From contig NZ_JAKRGF010000001.1 of NCBI RefSeq assembly GCF_022347685.1, positions 744,001 to 808,000 on the forward strand: a DNA stretch of 64,000 bases, in the 5' to 3' direction. This document shows positions 11,567 through 57,914 of this stretch, one piece after another. The notes below the pieces were generated by a model, which searched no databases, was not told the origin of the DNA, and worked only from the letters and a program-made list of their open reading frames with translations. Positions within the stretch are counted from its first letter, which is position 1. Every line of letters begins with the position of its first letter. Source of the stretch: Thalassobius sp. Cn5-15 (GTDB taxonomy: Bacteria > Pseudomonadota > Alphaproteobacteria > Rhodobacterales > Rhodobacteraceae). The translations under genes were made by a program, and so were the position numbers.

Positions 11567-12634
11567 TTAGCCGCGACGACGACGACGGCCACCGCGACCA
11601 CCCGCTGCATCGTCACCGGGTGCTTTGTTGAATTTAATCCAGGCTGCACCACCTTCGTCGTTGTTGGTCAGGAAGTTGGCAGCGCGGATGGCCTCCATTT
11701 CCTTGCCAGCGCGCGGCTTGGTGGAGCCGATGCCGAAAGTCTGGCAGAAGGTTTCGTCATCCATGTCGGCGGGGATGATGATGCCTTTCGCTTCGATCTC
11801 GGCGCGTTTTTCAGCCAGCTTCTTGGGGCCAACAGGGATCGCAACCGGGTTCATGATCGCCGAAGTCATGCCAGTGGCCATCGCCATCGGCAGGAAGGCG
11901 TTGTTGATGCCGTGACGGTTCGGCAGACCAAACGAGATGTTCGAGGCACCACAGGTGGTGTTCACACCCAGTTCGTTGCGCAGACGGTAGTTCAGTTCAA
12001 ACACCTGCAGGCCAGCGGTGCCCATGGCACCAACCGGCATCACCAGCGGATCAACCACGATGTCATGCGCGGGGATGCCGAAATCAGCGGCGCGCTCGAC
12101 AATCTTTTTAGCAACAGCGAAACGCACTTCGGGATCTTCCGAGATGCCAGTGTCGTCGTTGGAGATTGCAACAACGGGAACGTTGTATTTGGCAACCAGC
12201 GGCAGAACCACTTCCAGACGCTCTTCTTCACCGGTGACAGAGTTCAACAGCGGACGACCTTTGGCGGCAGCCAGACCAGCCTCCAGCGCGCCAGGAACCG
12301 AGCTGTCGATGCACAGAGGGCAATCGGTCACTTCCTGCACTTTTTCCACCAGCTGACGCATCAGCTCGGGCTCCACGAAGTTGTTGTCCGCGTAACGGGG
12401 ATCTTCGGCCATTTTGTTGGAGAAAACCGCGCCCGAGTTAATGTCCAGAACGGTGGCACCAGCGGCAACCTGTGCCAGTGCGTCGGCCTGCACGCGGGAA
12501 AAATCGCCGCGCTCCAGCTCTTCGTTCAGGATTTTACGACCCGTGGGGTTGATACGCTCGCCGATAACGGTGAACGGCTGATCAAAACCCATGATTGCGG
12601 TTTGGGTTGCAGATTCAATGATAGTACGGGTCAT
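11567..12634 (-). CDS. Methyltetrahydrofolate:corrinoid methyltransferase, folate module of a split methionine synthase
   Basis: A 355-residue pterin-binding TIM barrel like the folate module of MetH: GERINPTGRK near residue 26, LDINSG, a CIDSS segment and NSVTGEEE. It is expected to move the methyl group from 5-methyl-THF to the cobalamin of a separate corrinoid protein, probably the one at 56561. The last residues are unusual: an extended tail ending GGRGGRRRRRG, absent from MetH modules. The ATG lies 2 bases after the stop of the MTHFR-like gene, so the two are an operon. From memory, a split methionine synthase of this kind has been reported in Phaeobacter from mutant fitness data. A dedicated methylotrophic role is the alternative. 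Confidence 0.85.
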   Translation of the reverse strand: MTRTIIESATQTAIMGFDQPFTVIGERINPTGRKILNEELERGDFSRVQADALAQVAAGATVLDINSGAVFSNKMAEDPRYADNNFVEPELMRQLVEKVQEVTDCPLCIDSSVPGALEAGLAAAKGRPLLNSVTGEEERLEVVLPLVAKYNVPVVAISNDDTGISEDPEVRFAVAKKIVERAADFGIPAHDIVVDPLVMPVGAMGTAGLQVFELNYRLRNELGVNTTCGASNISFGLPNRHGINNAFLPMAMATGMTSAIMNPVAIPVGPKKLAEKRAEIEAKGIIIPADMDDETFCQTFGIGSTKPRAGKEMEAIRAANFLTNNDEGGAAWIKFNKAPGDDAAGGRGGRRRRRG

Positions 12635-12636
12635 AA

Positions 12637-13572
12637 TTAATCCTGTTGTGCAGCGGCGGGTTGTGCCGAGGCACCGCCATTTTCGATTGCCCAGTTGGCG
12701 TTGGTTTTGATGCCGCCAAGCGGGAAGAAGTGGACTTTTTCGATGTTAAAGTCTGGGTTCGCGGCCTTGTGTGCCGCCAGATCGGTCAGTACGTCGGTCG
12801 GCTCATGCGGCAACAGCAGCTTCGACACATCCTTGGCACGCTTTTGCAGAACTTTCAGCGACGGGCCAACGCCACAGGCAATGGCGAACTTGATCATGGT
12901 CTGCAATTTGGCAGGACCCGCGATACCGATGTGGATCGGCAGGTTCATACCGCGCTCTTTCAGTGCGTTTGCCCATTCAATCACCGGCTCTGCCTCAAAA
13001 CAGAACTGGGTCGCCAGCGCCATCGAGGCGTCTGTGCGTTTGGAATATTCCTGTTTCCAGTCCAGCGCTGCGTAGGTATTGGCGCGACCGCCATTCGGGT
13101 CGATGTCCAGGTTCGGCTCGGGGTGGCCGGCGACGTGCAGGTTGGTGAAACCCGCTTTGTCGAACAGACCAGTATCCAAGAGCTGCATCGAGTCGGAGAA
13201 ATCGCCATGCGGGTTGGCAACACCACCGGCCAGCAAAAGCGCCTGTTTTACGTCCGCTTCGCCCTGATACATGGAGATCCAGTTTTCCAGTGTCGCCTTG
13301 TCCTTGATGATGCGCGCGGGGAAGTGAGGCATCACATCATAGCCTTCGCCTTTGATGCGCTTGGCAGTGGCAACCATATCCTCGATCGGGGTGCCTTCGA
13401 TGTGGGCGATATAGACGCGGGTGCCTTCGGGCAACAGCGCACGGAAATCTTCGACCTTGGCCGCGGTGCGCGGCATCACTTCGATCGAGTAGCCTTTCAG
13501 AAAGGCCTCAAGCTCGGGGTTCACAGGTTTGGTGCCCTGTGCCTCCTTTTTGCGGAAATTCAGCAATGCCAT
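12637..13572 (-). CDS. Methylenetetrahydrofolate reductase-like protein
   Basis: A 311-residue member of the MTHFR/MetF barrel family. Family-typical stretches include AHIEGTPIEDMVATAKRI, the LLLAGGVANPHGDF region (equivalent to the reductase cofactor loop) and FCFEAEPVIEWANALKERG. It would supply 5-methyl-THF to the adjacent folate:corrinoid methyltransferase. The ATG at 13572 follows GGGAGG; the longer frame to 13620 runs into the upstream gene. Order: small Virulence_fact protein, this gene (32-base gap), then the methyltransferase (2-base gap). It differs from classical MetF in its N-terminal section, so it may be a specialised paralogue rather than the only MetF. Confidence 0.82.
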   Translation of the reverse strand: MALLNFRKKEAQGTKPVNPELEAFLKGYSIEVMPRTAAKVEDFRALLPEGTRVYIAHIEGTPIEDMVATAKRIKGEGYDVMPHFPARIIKDKATLENWISMYQGEADVKQALLLAGGVANPHGDFSDSMQLLDTGLFDKAGFTNLHVAGHPEPNLDIDPNGGRANTYAALDWKQEYSKRTDASMALATQFCFEAEPVIEWANALKERGMNLPIHIGIAGPAKLQTMIKFAIACGVGPSLKVLQKRAKDVSKLLLPHEPTDVLTDLAAHKAANPDFNIEKVHFFPLGGIKTNANWAIENGGASAQPAAAQQD

Positions 13573-13604
13573 GACGGCCTCCCTAATATGTTGCGACCAC
13601 GGGA

Positions 13605-13907
13605 TCACCCGCGATCCCATCCTTCAGCTGCGATCAGCGCCTTAATGCGTTCCTGATCGTATTCTTCCTCCAGTCGCGCCACTTCGGCGGCGACAATCTC
13701 TGCCGGATCACCGGCCATCTCATAAGGTTCCGCCTTGCGCCACTCTGCCAGATAGGCGTCGGTGTCGCTGGCGCCGATCTTCATCGCAGCGCGGTCGATC
13801 GCCTGCTCAAAGCGTTCGGCCAGCGGCTTTTTGGCGCCACGGCGTCCTTTTCCAACGATGACCTGCGCCGGAATATCGCGCCAGTAAACGATCGTAACAT
13901 CGGGCAT
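13605..13907 (-). CDS. Small Virulence_fact-family (PF13769-like) protein
   Basis: A 100-residue soluble protein beginning MPDVTIVYWRDIPAQVIVGKGR, the hallmark of a small family annotated virulence factor without good reason. It has a beta-rich N-terminus and a charged helical C-terminus (EEEYDQERIKAL). No catalytic motif is recognised. It is the first gene of an apparent three-gene operon with the MTHFR-like and folate:corrinoid methyltransferase genes, so a helper role in methyl-folate or methionine-synthase function is inferred. It is divergent from ppx. Confidence 0.7.
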   Translation of the reverse strand: MPDVTIVYWRDIPAQVIVGKGRRGAKKPLAERFEQAIDRAAMKIGASDTDAYLAEWRKAEPYEMAGDPAEIVAAEVARLEEEYDQERIKALIAAEGWDRG

Positions 13908-53552: not shown

Positions 53553-54569
53553 ATGACCAACGCCCTCTCCCGCATTCTTGAAACCCGCGACTGGCTGCTG
53601 GCCGATGGCGCAACCGGTACCAACCTGTTCAATATGGGGCTGCAATCTGGCGACGCGCCGGAACTGTGGAACGAACAGCACCCTGACCGCATCAAGAAGC
53701 TTTACCAGATGGCTGTAGATGCGGGCAGTGATCTGTTCCTGACCAACAGTTTTGGTGGCAACGCATCGCGTCTGAAACTACATGATGCCGGCGATCGCGC
53801 GCGCGAACTGTCGCGCATGTCGGCAGAGATCGGCCGTGAGGTGGCAGACGCCTCGGACCGCGACATCATCGTTGCCGGTTCAGTCGGCCCGACCGGCGAG
53901 ATCTTTGCCCCCATGGGCCCGCTTACCCATGAGCTGGCGGTCGAGATGTTCCATGAACAAGCCGAAGGTCTGAAAGAAGGCGGCGCAGATGTTGCGTGGC
54001 TGGAAACCATTTCCGCGCCCGAAGAATACATCGCCGCCGCCGAAGCCTTTGCACTGGCGGATATTCCGTGGTGTGGCACCATGAGCTTTGACACCGCAGG
54101 CCGAACCATGATGGGCGTGACCTCGGCGCAGATGACCGAAATGGTGGAGAAACTGCCGAACCCACCACTGGCCTTTGGTGCCAACTGTGGCGTCGGCGCG
54201 GCGGATCTGATGCGTACCGTGCTGGGCTTTGCCGCCCAAGGGTCAGAGCGCCCGCTGATTGCCAAAGGCAACGCCGGCATCCCGAAATACGTCGATGGTC
54301 ACATCCATTATGACGGCACACCTGAGCTGATGGCCGAATACGCAGTTCTGGCCCGTGATGCAGGTGCGACCATCATCGGTGGCTGCTGTGGCACCATGCC
54401 CGAACACCTCAGCGCGATGCGCGCCGCACTGGAAACCCGCGAGCGTGGCCCCCGGCCGTCACTGGAACAGGTGGCAGAGGCGCTTGGTGGCTTCTCCTCC
54501 GCCTCCGACGGTACCGGCGAAGACGCAGACGCGCCCAAGCGCGAACGCCGCGGCCGCCGCCGCAGCTAA
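53553..54569 (+). CDS. Homocysteine S-methyltransferase, homocysteine module of a split methionine synthase
   Basis: A 338-residue Hcy-binding barrel: LLADGATGTNLFNMGL at residue 16, zinc cysteines in GANCGVGAADL and IIGGCCGTMPEHL. It transfers a methyl group to homocysteine, forming methionine. Genes of this kind are often labelled betaine-homocysteine methyltransferase. The corrinoid gene 2 kb downstream and folate module elsewhere argue for a cobalamin-linked role. A poorly conserved tail ends KRERRGRRRS, strongly basic like that of the folate module. Both roles remain possible. Confidence 0.85.
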   Translation: MTNALSRILETRDWLLADGATGTNLFNMGLQSGDAPELWNEQHPDRIKKLYQMAVDAGSDLFLTNSFGGNASRLKLHDAGDRARELSRMSAEIGREVADASDRDIIVAGSVGPTGEIFAPMGPLTHELAVEMFHEQAEGLKEGGADVAWLETISAPEEYIAAAEAFALADIPWCGTMSFDTAGRTMMGVTSAQMTEMVEKLPNPPLAFGANCGVGAADLMRTVLGFAAQGSERPLIAKGNAGIPKYVDGHIHYDGTPELMAEYAVLARDAGATIIGGCCGTMPEHLSAMRAALETRERGPRPSLEQVAEALGGFSSASDGTGEDADAPKRERRGRRRS

Positions 54570-54585
54570 GCGCTGTCAACGAACG

Positions 54586-54621
54586 AAAAACGCCGTCCAG
54601 CCTATTTCACCGGCTGGGCGG
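54586..54621 (-). terminator. Terminator overlapping the end of the receiver gene
   Basis: CCGTCCAGCC (54593-54602) pairs with GGCTGGGCGG (54612-54621). Read leftward the hairpin is followed by TTTTT (54586-54590). It touches the receiver gene's stop codon. Confidence 0.6.
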
Positions 54622-54982
54622 CCAACACATCCGAAATCGTGCGCAACAATTCCATCGCGCCCACCGGTTTTGACAAAATCTGCTGTGCCCCCAGCAATTT
54701 CGCCACCTCCAGATAGTTCACGGCAGATGTTCGCGCCCCACCCGAAATGGCGATGATCGGCGGTGCATCCGCCCGCTTGCGTAATGCGCGGATCACTTCG
54801 ACCCCGTCGCAATTGGGCATGATGATATCGGTCAGCACCAGATCCACCTTCAGCGTGCGCAGCAAGGACAGACCTTGCAGCCCATCCGCTGCCATCGTGA
54901 CCTGATGGCCGTCAGCGCCAAGGATGATTTCAAAAGTGTCGCGTACTGCAGCGTCGTCTTCGATCAGTAGAATATGTGCCAT
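54602..54982 (-). CDS. Single-domain response regulator (CheY-like)
   Basis: A 126-residue stand-alone receiver: acidic pocket EDD at 8-10, phospho-acceptor Asp near 52 in LVLTDIIMPNCDG, Ser in IAISGGAR and Lys in LSKPVG. It lacks an output domain, so it acts by protein contact. It lies 102 bases downstream of a histidine kinase in the same direction, its probable partner. It is nested between the homocysteine and corrinoid genes of the split methionine synthase. Confidence 0.9.
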   Translation of the reverse strand: MAHILLIEDDAAVRDTFEIILGADGHQVTMAADGLQGLSLLRTLKVDLVLTDIIMPNCDGVEVIRALRKRADAPPIIAISGGARTSAVNYLEVAKLLGAQQILSKPVGAMELLRTISDVLAAQPVK

Positions 54983-55084
54983 TTAGGGTCCGCTGATGAG
55001 AATTCTTTGCATTGTAGGTTCTGGGCCTTGGCGGATTTCGCCTGCGTTTTGGGACGCCTGACACTGTCGGACGCCGGTCTGGTT

Positions 55085-56092
55085 TCATCCGGCGGCCTCT
55101 CTTGCCACGCTGCCTTTGGTCCAATGGTTGTCTTCGGCGCGAAAGATCCCTGGCACCCAGACTTTGAACTGGGCGCCGCTACCAGGCTGTGAATCGACCG
55201 ATATCTGCCCCCCGACATTGCGCAAAAGTTCCTGCACCTGCCATAAACCAAGGCCTGTCCCCTCACCCACCGGCTTAGAGGTGAAGTAGGGTTCGAAAAT
55301 ACGGCTCAACATATCCGGCGTGATGCCTACACCTGTGTCCGACAGACTGAGAAACAAACCATCGACACCGCTCATCTGGCCCGGCGTTGCAGTAAAGGTC
55401 ACGCTGCCCTGCGCCCCACCAATTGCGGCCAAGGCATTCGAGAACAGATTCATGATCACACTTTCCAAATCATCCCAAGCCATTTTTGGCTCCGGCAGCG
55501 CGTCTGAGATAATCGGCAGAAAGGTCACATCACTGGGGCAACTCAGGCTGAGCATATCCACCAGATCCGCCATGTTCTGAGTGACATCCACCTCGCCCCC
55601 AAATTCATTTCTGCGCCGCGAGATGCGCAGAACCGTATCCAGCGATCCTCGCGCCCGCATTGCCGCGTCGCGGATCATTTCCAATTGCCGCAGCCTGGGA
55701 TCTTCTTCGGCCGTTTGCACCACAATCAGTTCTGACAGGCCGATGACCGGCTGCAACTGGTTGTTCACCTGATGTGCCATCCCCGCCGCGAGCGTGCCCA
55801 GCCCGTCCATTTTCCGCGCATGCGACAGTTGACGTTCCAATTCCAATAAGCGTTCTGTCTGTTTCTGTGCCTCGCGCATGCGGCGCCATGTGTACCAGGT
55901 CAATGGCAAGGGCAGCAGCAGCAGCAAGATGACCGTTTCGTCCAGATCCCAATCCTCATGCGCGCGGGATACTTCATAAAACCATTCATAAAGGTCCAGT
56001 TCCGACATCGGCACCCAAACCAGAAGCAACAGCACCAGCATAACCCACACGTCGCGCCATTTGGCAGATCTGAATAGTCTCGATCCGGACAT
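55085..56092 (-). CDS. Membrane sensor histidine kinase with HQVNN H-box
   Basis: A 335-residue kinase with two membrane helices (about 13-30 and 53-68), a short loop between, a coiled coil (73-95), an H-box GMAHQVNNQLQPVIG with His at 107 and an HATPase domain (DTGVGI, GEGTGLGLWQVQ). In most kinases the His is followed by Glu or Asp; here it is Gln. That residue aids kinase and phosphatase chemistry, so activity may be altered. The start at 56092 is chosen over a TTG at 56110. The small extracellular loop leaves the signal unclear. Confidence 0.85.
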   Translation of the reverse strand: MSGSRLFRSAKWRDVWVMLVLLLLVWVPMSELDLYEWFYEVSRAHEDWDLDETVILLLLLPLPLTWYTWRRMREAQKQTERLLELERQLSHARKMDGLGTLAAGMAHQVNNQLQPVIGLSELIVVQTAEEDPRLRQLEMIRDAAMRARGSLDTVLRISRRRNEFGGEVDVTQNMADLVDMLSLSCPSDVTFLPIISDALPEPKMAWDDLESVIMNLFSNALAAIGGAQGSVTFTATPGQMSGVDGLFLSLSDTGVGITPDMLSRIFEPYFTSKPVGEGTGLGLWQVQELLRNVGGQISVDSQPGSGAQFKVWVPGIFRAEDNHWTKGSVAREAAG

Positions 56093-56560
56093 ACTTCCGA
56101 AGATACTCAAGCCCCATCACCCCTTATTACAGGACCCGACGCACCACCTTGCAACAACAAAGGTTGTAGCAATGCGCCTCACCTCCCTCATTAATAGTCA
56201 ATTGAACCAAATCAGGAAACACCGTCGCAATCCGGTAAAACAAATTCTCTTCAAAGCACAAAAAACGGCCAAATTCGCCGCGAAACATACACATTATAGC
56301 CGCCACATAGCCGCCAAAACGGTCACGTCGCTAACCAGTTGTGCAGTCGCAGAAAATTCACCGACGAAGGATTTAAACGACCATATTTTTGACCTTACGT
56401 CGCAACTGCACATCGCCAAGTCGCAAATTGCCCAGACCAATCTGCCTCGAAAAAGCGAAATATACTTAGAAACACCGCCCCTAATTTATCCGGGCTCCCA
56501 CTCATTTCCAGCCAGCCTGTTTTACAGATGCGTGGCCAGACCAAGCCAAGGAAGCACACC
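56093..56560. other. AT-rich regulatory region before the corrinoid gene
   Basis: About 470 bases, notably AT-rich relative to the flanks. It contains a direct repeat ATAGCCGCCA at 56296-56305 and 56307-56316. No gene or known riboswitch could be recognised. It must hold the divergent promoters of the kinase and the corrinoid gene. Confidence 0.5.
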
Positions 56561-57259
56561 ATGTCGGACGAAGACGATATCATCCTGTCGGAACTCGATG
56601 ATGAGGAACTTGTTCAACAGATGTTCGACGACCTCTACGACGGTCTTAAAGAAGAGATCGAAGAAGCGGTCAACGTCCTGCTGGAACGCGGCTGGCAGCC
56701 CTACGACATCCTGACCAAAGCATTGGTTGGTGGTATGACCGTTGTTGGTGCCGACTTCCGTGACGGCATCCTGTTTGTGCCTGAAGTTCTGCTGGCGGCA
56801 AACGCGATGAAGGGCGGCATGGCCATCCTGAAGCCGCTGCTGGCTGAAACCGGTGCACCGCGCATGGGTTCGATGGTTATCGGTACGGTAAAAGGCGACA
56901 TCCACGACATCGGCAAAAACCTGGTTTCCATGATGATGGAAGGCGCTGGTTTCGAAGTTGTAGACATCGGCATCAACAACCCGGTCGAAAACTATCTGGA
57001 AGCTCTGGAAGAGCACAAGCCCGATATTCTGGGCATGTCCGCCCTGCTGACCACCACCATGCCATACATGAAGGTTGTAATCGACACGATGGTCGAAAAC
57101 GGCATTCGTGACGACTACACCGTTCTGGTTGGTGGCGCCCCCCTGAACGAAGAGTTCGGCAAAGCAATCGGCGCAGATGGTTACTGCCGTGATGCGGCTG
57201 TTGCCGTGGAAATGGCCAAGGAGTTTGTTGCGCGCAAGCACAACCAACCCAACGCCTAA
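56561..57259 (+). CDS. Corrinoid (cobalamin-binding) methyl carrier protein
   Basis: A 232-residue B12-binding protein of the MtbC/MetH cobalamin-module type. A helical cap (about 30-95) precedes the Rossmann-like domain with GTVKGDIHDIGKN, His115 being the lower cobalt ligand, and VLVGGAPLNEEFG. It shuttles a methyl group from methyl-folate to homocysteine. The first 35 residues hold 16 acidic side chains and one basic one. AAGGAAG precedes ATG 56561; an in-frame ATG at 56528 is less likely. It is 16 bases upstream of the DUF1638 gene. Confidence 0.93.
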   Translation: MSDEDDIILSELDDEELVQQMFDDLYDGLKEEIEEAVNVLLERGWQPYDILTKALVGGMTVVGADFRDGILFVPEVLLAANAMKGGMAILKPLLAETGAPRMGSMVIGTVKGDIHDIGKNLVSMMMEGAGFEVVDIGINNPVENYLEALEEHKPDILGMSALLTTTMPYMKVVIDTMVENGIRDDYTVLVGGAPLNEEFGKAIGADGYCRDAAVAVEMAKEFVARKHNQPNA

Positions 57260-57275
57260 GAACTGCGTCTGACCT

Positions 57276-57914
57276 ATGACGCAGTTTGATGACAGCACCC
57301 TGACCTCTCAGACCCTCCCACCCCTTCAGGGTCAGGGTCGGGTGCTGATCATCGCTTGTGGTGCTTTGGCGCGGGAAATACTCGCGCTGAAGGACTTGAA
57401 TGGCTGGGATCATCTGGATCTGACCTGTCTGCCCGCCATTCTGCACAATCACCCCGAAAAAATTGCCGACGCTGCACGGGATGCGATTGCCAAGCATCGC
57501 GGTGCCTATGACCAGATCTTTCTGGCCTATGCGGATTGCGGCACCGGCGGTGCGCTGGAAATGGTCTGCCGCGCGGAGGGGGTTCATATGATTGCCGGCC
57601 CGCATTGTTACAGCTTCTTTGCCGGCAATGAAGCATTTGAAGCGGCGGGCGAAGTGACCAGTTTCTTCCTCACCGATTTTCTGGCGCGTCAGTTCGAAAC
57701 CTTTGTGGTGAAGCCGCTGGGCCTCGACCGCCATCCAGAACTGTCGTCGATGTATTTCGGCAATTATGAAAAACTGATCTATCTGGCCCAGACCGACGAT
57801 CCCGCCCTAACCGCAAAGGCTGAAGAAGCGGCAGAAACTTTGGGGTTGGCATTTGAACGGCGCATGACAGGCTACGGAGATTTGGCCACTGCTCTGGCCG
57901 ACCTGAAAAAGTAA
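57276..57914 (+). CDS. DUF1638 family protein
   Basis: A 212-residue cytoplasmic protein with conserved family stretches ACGALAREI, CLPAILHNHPEKI, YADCGTGGALE and GPHCYSFFAG. Catalytic mechanism unknown; the several conserved Cys/His suggest metal or cobalamin handling. It follows the corrinoid gene by 16 bases. As I recall, DUF1638 has been linked to split methionine synthase in Phaeobacter; a maturation or reactivation role is inferred. Confidence 0.85.
   Translation: MTQFDDSTLTSQTLPPLQGQGRVLIIACGALAREILALKDLNGWDHLDLTCLPAILHNHPEKIADAARDAIAKHRGAYDQIFLAYADCGTGGALEMVCRAEGVHMIAGPHCYSFFAGNEAFEAAGEVTSFFLTDFLARQFETFVVKPLGLDRHPELSSMYFGNYEKLIYLAQTDDPALTAKAEEAAETLGLAFERRMTGYGDLATALADLKK

Follow-up and report, generated by a model that had tools for sequence, protein, structure and literature searches.

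The window, i.e., the whole 64,000-nucleotide stretch of Thalassobius sp. Cn5-15 DNA analysed here, contains the genes for two methyltransferase modules and a corrinoid carrier. MtgD, the methyltetrahydrofolate:corrinoid methyltransferase or folate module (11567..12634, minus strand), has a PF00809 domain at residues 25-261 of 355, and its C-terminal end, ...GDDAAGGRGGRRRRRG, carries the arginine-rich tail GGRGGRRRRRG (11570..11602, minus strand). The homocysteine module MtgE, or Bmt (53553..54569, plus strand), has PF02574 at residues 15-293 of 338 and ends ...DADAPKRERRGRRRS, with the arginine-rich tail KRERRGRRRS (54537..54566, plus strand). Both tails lie where the initial annotation had placed them, and since the Pfam barrels stop at residue 261 of 355 and 293 of 338 neither tail is part of a barrel, as it had also stated. 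In an AlphaFold single-chain model from a shallow alignment, residues 324-334 of MtgE have a pLDDT below 50 and the tail is predicted to be disordered.

The carrier MtgC (56561..57259, plus strand) has PF02607 at residues 18-91 and PF02310 at 104-216, and its N-terminus is acidic (56561..56641, plus strand). Sixteen acidic residues had been claimed for its first 35, and this count holds for translation from 56561 (MSDEDD...), which is also the start conserved among relatives; it drops to 11 of 35 if the ATG lying upstream, at 56528, is taken instead. The extension comprises only about residues 1-13, as residues 14-27 form the first cap helix in the model (also single-chain with a shallow alignment; residues 1-4 pLDDT below 50) and the Pfam cap domain PF02607 begins at residue 18. 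Two tail-less genes served as negative controls, namely that of the DUF1638 protein adjoining MtgC (57276..57914, plus strand; PF07796) and a gene adjoining MtgD (12637..13620, minus strand), the product of which gave no match in a Pfam search at 0.001. We take the latter to be MetF2-like, from its position beside mtgD as in Mausz 2025. Between MtgE and MtgC, on the minus strand, lie a response regulator and a sensor-kinase-like ORF (54602-56110), named from their translations alone.

A split synthase of this kind has already been published (Price 2018, Mausz 2025). The available text of Price 2018 (PMC5764234) identifies the three modules, by mutant fitness, as the methionine synthase of Phaeobacter inhibens, together with a RamA-like protein and DUF1638, all of which have counterparts here. 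According to the available text of Mausz 2025 (PMC12478193), the carrier of Ruegeria pomeroyi also serves betaine demethylation by the MttB-family MtgB, MtgC is of distinct origin and was not separated from MetH, and MtgBCDE is widely expressed in the ocean. The genes and neighbourhood correspond to that system, in which the carrier is common to MtgB, MtgD and MtgE, and our MtgD was matched to theirs through its domain and gene neighbourhood. The pterin, homocysteine and cobalamin modules occupy three separate ORFs (PF00809, PF02574 and PF02607 plus PF02310), and the window genome also encodes a RamA-like reactivase (PF14574), DUF1638 (PF07796) and two MttB-family (PF06253) methyl donor enzymes. 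The best explanation is that three components of the MtgBCDE system are encoded in the window; in this system one free carrier, MtgC, visits MtgD, MtgE, MttB-family MtgB demethylases and a RamA-like reactivase.

The window genome differs from the R. pomeroyi system in additionally having MetH, which performs the same folate-cobalamin-homocysteine chemistry but has its modules joined in a single polypeptide together with an activation domain of its own, and which may substitute for the split system here. This complete protein of 1273 aa (G000:C9 665546-669367, minus strand, about 75 kb before the window) gave five Pfam domains, one of them the activation domain, and ends ...GKLAAE without a tail. 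The locus is therefore not a MetH cut into separate genes that replaces a missing one-chain enzyme, and the proposal of the initial annotation that the tails stand in for the covalent linkers of MetH does not survive the presence of MetH in the same genome or the separate origin of MtgC given in the available text of Mausz 2025 (PMC12478193). Among the 121 genomes of a draw from the order, the split system occurs by itself in 99 and alongside a MetH-like match in 13, and nine have a MetH-like match only.

If the tails dock the carrier, then other carrier partners are expected to be tailed, and in the window genome the RamA-like reactivase and both MttB-family demethylases, which published work assigns to the same carrier, were found to be so. 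The reactivase ends GGGESADGGRRRRRRKA, including GGRRRRRRKA, and the demethylases have their arginine tails at the N-terminus, starting SRRRARGGGGAARRAER and QRSSRAARRKSGRG (in the longer reading MSEAGSRRRARGGGGAARRAERS and MTIAQRSSRAARRKSGRG). A C-terminal tail was looked for in DUF1638, the MetF2-like protein and MetH of this genome and none was found. The tails are thus not specific to the split methionine synthase, as had first been thought.

To see how far the tails are kept, orthologues were collected from the family to which the window belongs, from fetched regions of 29 further alphaproteobacterial families, and from named Rhodobacteraceae and plasmid records. Sequences below 45% identity (MtgB excepted) or below 60% coverage and repeated sequences were excluded before counting, and a unique sequence was scored as tailed if it had at least five arginine or lysine residues within 12 consecutive positions close to the terminus (for C-termini, among the last 30 residues). 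The MtgD tail is present in 91 of 91 alphaproteobacterial orthologues (33/33 own family, 58/58 other families) and in one of three named plasmids, and that of MtgE in 113 of 113 (87/87 and 26/26) and in the single named plasmid sequence. RamA is tailed in 86 of 90 (33/33 and 53/57) and in all three named plasmid sequences; for the N-terminus of MtgB the counts are 4/4, 20/23 and, on named plasmids, 1/3. The three MtgB of the class that fall under the threshold are ORFs starting inside the core, so that their N-termini are not visible, and among the four such RamA two have a basic run further in (L187, L216) and two have none (L220, L223). The named misses are MtgD and MtgB of S. meliloti and Paracoccus methylovorus, in which the tails are looser and the arginines wider apart. 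Among the controls, DUF1638 passed in five of 174 sequences (1/119 own family, 4/52 other families, 0/3 named) and MetF2 in none of 30 (0/28 and 0/2).

On the side of the carrier, the mean net charge of the first 35 residues of MtgC is -14.6 in the own family (n = 127), -13.3 in the other families (n = 58) and -10.4 in the named set (n = 5, Gemmatirosa included). Over residues 1-27 the 127 own-family sequences average 5.7 acidic residues in the extension (1-13) and 6.0 in the helix (14-27), 11.7 in total, with 0.00 basic residues. Tails on the partners and opposite charge on the carrier are thus conserved together, and the orthologue comparison, which looked for tails missing where the acidic carrier is kept, did not refute the original proposal, as both co-occur in 30 alphaproteobacterial families. 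It is all but certain, in our judgement, that the tails on MtgC partners are genuine and conserved. Read-through was rejected as their origin: RamA and MtgD matches with in-frame stops (G014, G020, G023, G079, G097, G104, G107) belong to proteins that end directly after the arginine run.

An unbiased scan of 2627 gene-like ORFs around these loci, grouped by single linkage into 40 groups with at least eight members (MtgC and DUF1638 merged into one) and with at least five arginines in 12 residues as the criterion, pointed to the same proteins. C-terminal arginine runs occurred in 96% of MtgE (n = 55), 96% of MtgD (n = 25) and 90% of RamA (n = 40), and N-terminal runs in 76% of MtgB (n = 21). 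The next-ranked group reached 31% (n = 16), its one printed member apparently having a misplaced start. Among the 40 neighbourhood gene families the standouts were MtgD, MtgE, RamA and MtgB only, and not DUF1638. Ten further plasmid MttB-family ORFs, 26-55% identical to the query, were read irrespective of whether their hosts have MtgC; nine have 7-10 arginine or lysine residues and 2-7 acidic residues in the first 45, and the tenth, from S. meliloti 1021 and 417 aa long, has a single arginine or lysine in that stretch and is tail-less.

In the order draw MtgC, MtgD and RamA are each found in 112 of 121 genomes and are absent from the same nine. In a draw of 385 genomes from the class, MtgC (E < 1e-90) occurs in 74, RamA in 77, both in 72 and MtgD in 75; the five genomes with RamA but without orthologue-level MtgC are all 64-93% complete. 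MtgE at a cut-off of 1e-70 was found in 53 of the 385. Three genomes (G160, G286, G396) have no MtgE match at the cut-off and yet have tailed MtgD and RamA, which ties the tails to the carrier and not to methionine synthesis.

The sequences show that each of the four partner types has an arginine-rich tail at one terminus, beyond the folded domain, and that the homologues examined outside the MtgC system have none, barring exceptions. In sequence searches against the PDB, matches to the MtgB homologues 2qne, 9yce and 7xcl start only at query residue 32, 37 or 42, and the tail is included in 4yyc, the printed start of which agrees with that of the L395 protein from S. meliloti. Solved homologues of MtgD and MtgE have matches that are over by residue 268 and 304, RACo (3zyy) matches up to residue 650 of 686, and for MtgC the matches of other corrinoid proteins begin no earlier than profile position 16. 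In three same-class clusters with a different carrier (L401-L403), an arginine tail was seen in none of three RamA-like ends and none of the two printed pterin-enzyme ends, these being distant paralogues (30-35% identical); L404 showed a carrier and DUF1638 only. The Gemmatirosa locus (L399) shows neither tail nor acidic extension. A haloarchaeal locus (L400) has acid without tail, its carrier N-terminus being acidic and its RamA tail-less; haloarchaeal proteins are generally acidic. The second cluster of one genome (L207, G404:C57:14000-33900), with two MtgC-like paralogues, MtgD, RamA and DUF1638, has arginine runs that are weak or absent. As an example of clean tail loss it was dropped, because its MtgD KRWMKRCRRLAAEAA and RamA SRAKQRCREGSKNRTELQ still pass five in 12, and it is a weak control only.

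We regard docking of the acidic carrier by the tails as the best explanation of these sequence patterns, and on balance a probable one. The tails would constitute one common, weak and sequence-tolerant electrostatic address that catches MtgC at the acidic N-terminus and the first helix of the cap. Such contacts would raise the encounter rate and let MtgC pass from one partner to the next, and the tag would separate MtgC traffic from tail-less corrinoid enzymes, e.g., the MetH of the same cell. This is in essence what the initial annotation had put forward, and the co-occurrence and the extra tailed partners speak for it; its other side fared less well, as part of the acidic stretch belongs to an ordinary cap domain and co-variation of charge is absent. 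Tail charge was not significantly correlated with MtgC charge for RamA (rho 0.31, p 0.08, n = 32), MtgD (-0.09, n = 34) or MtgE (-0.16, p 0.13, n = 86), and both charges are near saturation. Also counting against docking, DUF1638 is genetically needed in P. inhibens and has no tail, and the available text of PMC12366255 describes P. inhibens Bmt as active by itself on betaine and DMSP in vitro. On the same side stand the exceptions given above, namely the RamA below the threshold, the looser tails of S. meliloti and P. methylovorus, the untailed S. meliloti MttB ORF, the haloarchaeal locus L400 and the five genomes with RamA but without orthologue-level MtgC.

Other accounts of the tails have to be weighed against this. 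Neutral low-complexity drift or a G+C effect would fit the poor alignment of the tail positions and the many G+C-rich hosts. The tails are, however, near-universal in orthologues whose cores are only 50-60% identical, and they stand out within their own genome. In a background sample of 392 gene-like ORFs from the same genome (390 C-termini once the MtgD and MtgE tails were excluded), at least six arginine or lysine residues per 12-residue window of the last 30 occurred in 12 of 390, and at least six arginines in only one, counts that are raised by the spurious ORFs a simple longest-ORF caller admits; none of the 392 N-termini had as many as 12 acidic residues among its first 35, the maximum being 10. 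At the locus of lowest G+C content (33%) the tails of MtgD and RamA still have nine and six arginines, respectively. A G+C artefact was ruled out, as arginine is kept in loci of 33-48% G+C with the same mix of arginine codons in the tails as in the protein bodies, and drift or base composition is a very improbable explanation overall.

A more substantial alternative is that the tails bind some other polyanion (RNA, DNA, polyphosphate or an acidic membrane) and so gather the enzymes at one place, the acidity of MtgC being unrelated. Disordered ends rich in arginine and glycine are a usual type of nucleic-acid binder, and across MtgE orthologues the tail aligns poorly while its composition is kept. 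We nevertheless think it unlikely, given that the tails are confined to the four families needing the carrier and that the carrier itself, which would have to share the location, is acidic instead. It is at least as doubtful, and to us slightly harder to credit, that each tail serves its own enzyme, through solubility, oligomer contacts, substrate access or autoinhibition, and that the likeness is convergent. The position of the tails at either N- or C-termini of unrelated folds would fit this, as would the Methanosarcina MttB hexamer, which the available text of PMC9842639 describes as stabilised by N-terminal residues; set against it are the recurrence of the same feature on four unrelated folds, same-fold homologues outside the system without tails and unconnected neighbour genes that also lack them.

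Docking by the tails, if correct, would differ from what is known of corrinoid proteins. In the methanol (MtaC-MtaB) and trimethylamine (MttC-MttB) systems a corrinoid protein likewise docks on a separate methyltransferase, and the extra N-terminal domain of MtaC, which stabilises the complex, is a precedent for N-terminal docking; in the available text of PMC9842639, however, docking involves a folded domain seated in a groove, or else a dimerisation loop, and no charged tails common to several partners. Neither published account of the split system appears to address the matter, as the available text on P. inhibens (PMC5764234) has nothing on tails or charge and that on R. pomeroyi (PMC12478193) contains no tail, charge or docking mechanism. 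No description of the arginine tails was found in the literature searched, which reached neither preprints nor most subscription papers. The literature consulted does not explain how a single corrinoid carrier locates its several separate enzymes, and a shared tag, if true, would be a mechanism for it. It would also provide a sequence rule predicting further clients of the carrier, e.g., which MttB paralogues belong, make a negative prediction for DUF1638, and mean that one charged tag was gained independently by four unrelated folds; the tag is testable by simple deletion. More speculatively, and with less confidence than we place in docking as such, Alphaproteobacteria could use one exchangeable arginine tag as a docking code around a shared B12-carrier hub. 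Methyl donors, acceptors and the reactivase, which belong to four unrelated folds, would each have been recruited to it by acquiring a tail, and the many tails might come together with the acidic carrier in a loose assembly of enzymes or a condensate, which would also shield the hub from MetH.

Two further observations concern individual loci. In one genome (G096:C28:333947-335984) RamA is matched twice side by side (query 6-364 and 357-685), which looks like a division into two ORFs, and the available text of Price 2018 (PMC5764234) mentions a Roseobacter whose RamA is split. The betaproteobacterial plasmid pAZKH of Azoarcus sp. KH32C (L396) carries MtgC, DUF1638, MetF-like genes and tailed MtgD and RamA beside betaine transport genes, and the module looks as if it had moved together with its tags.
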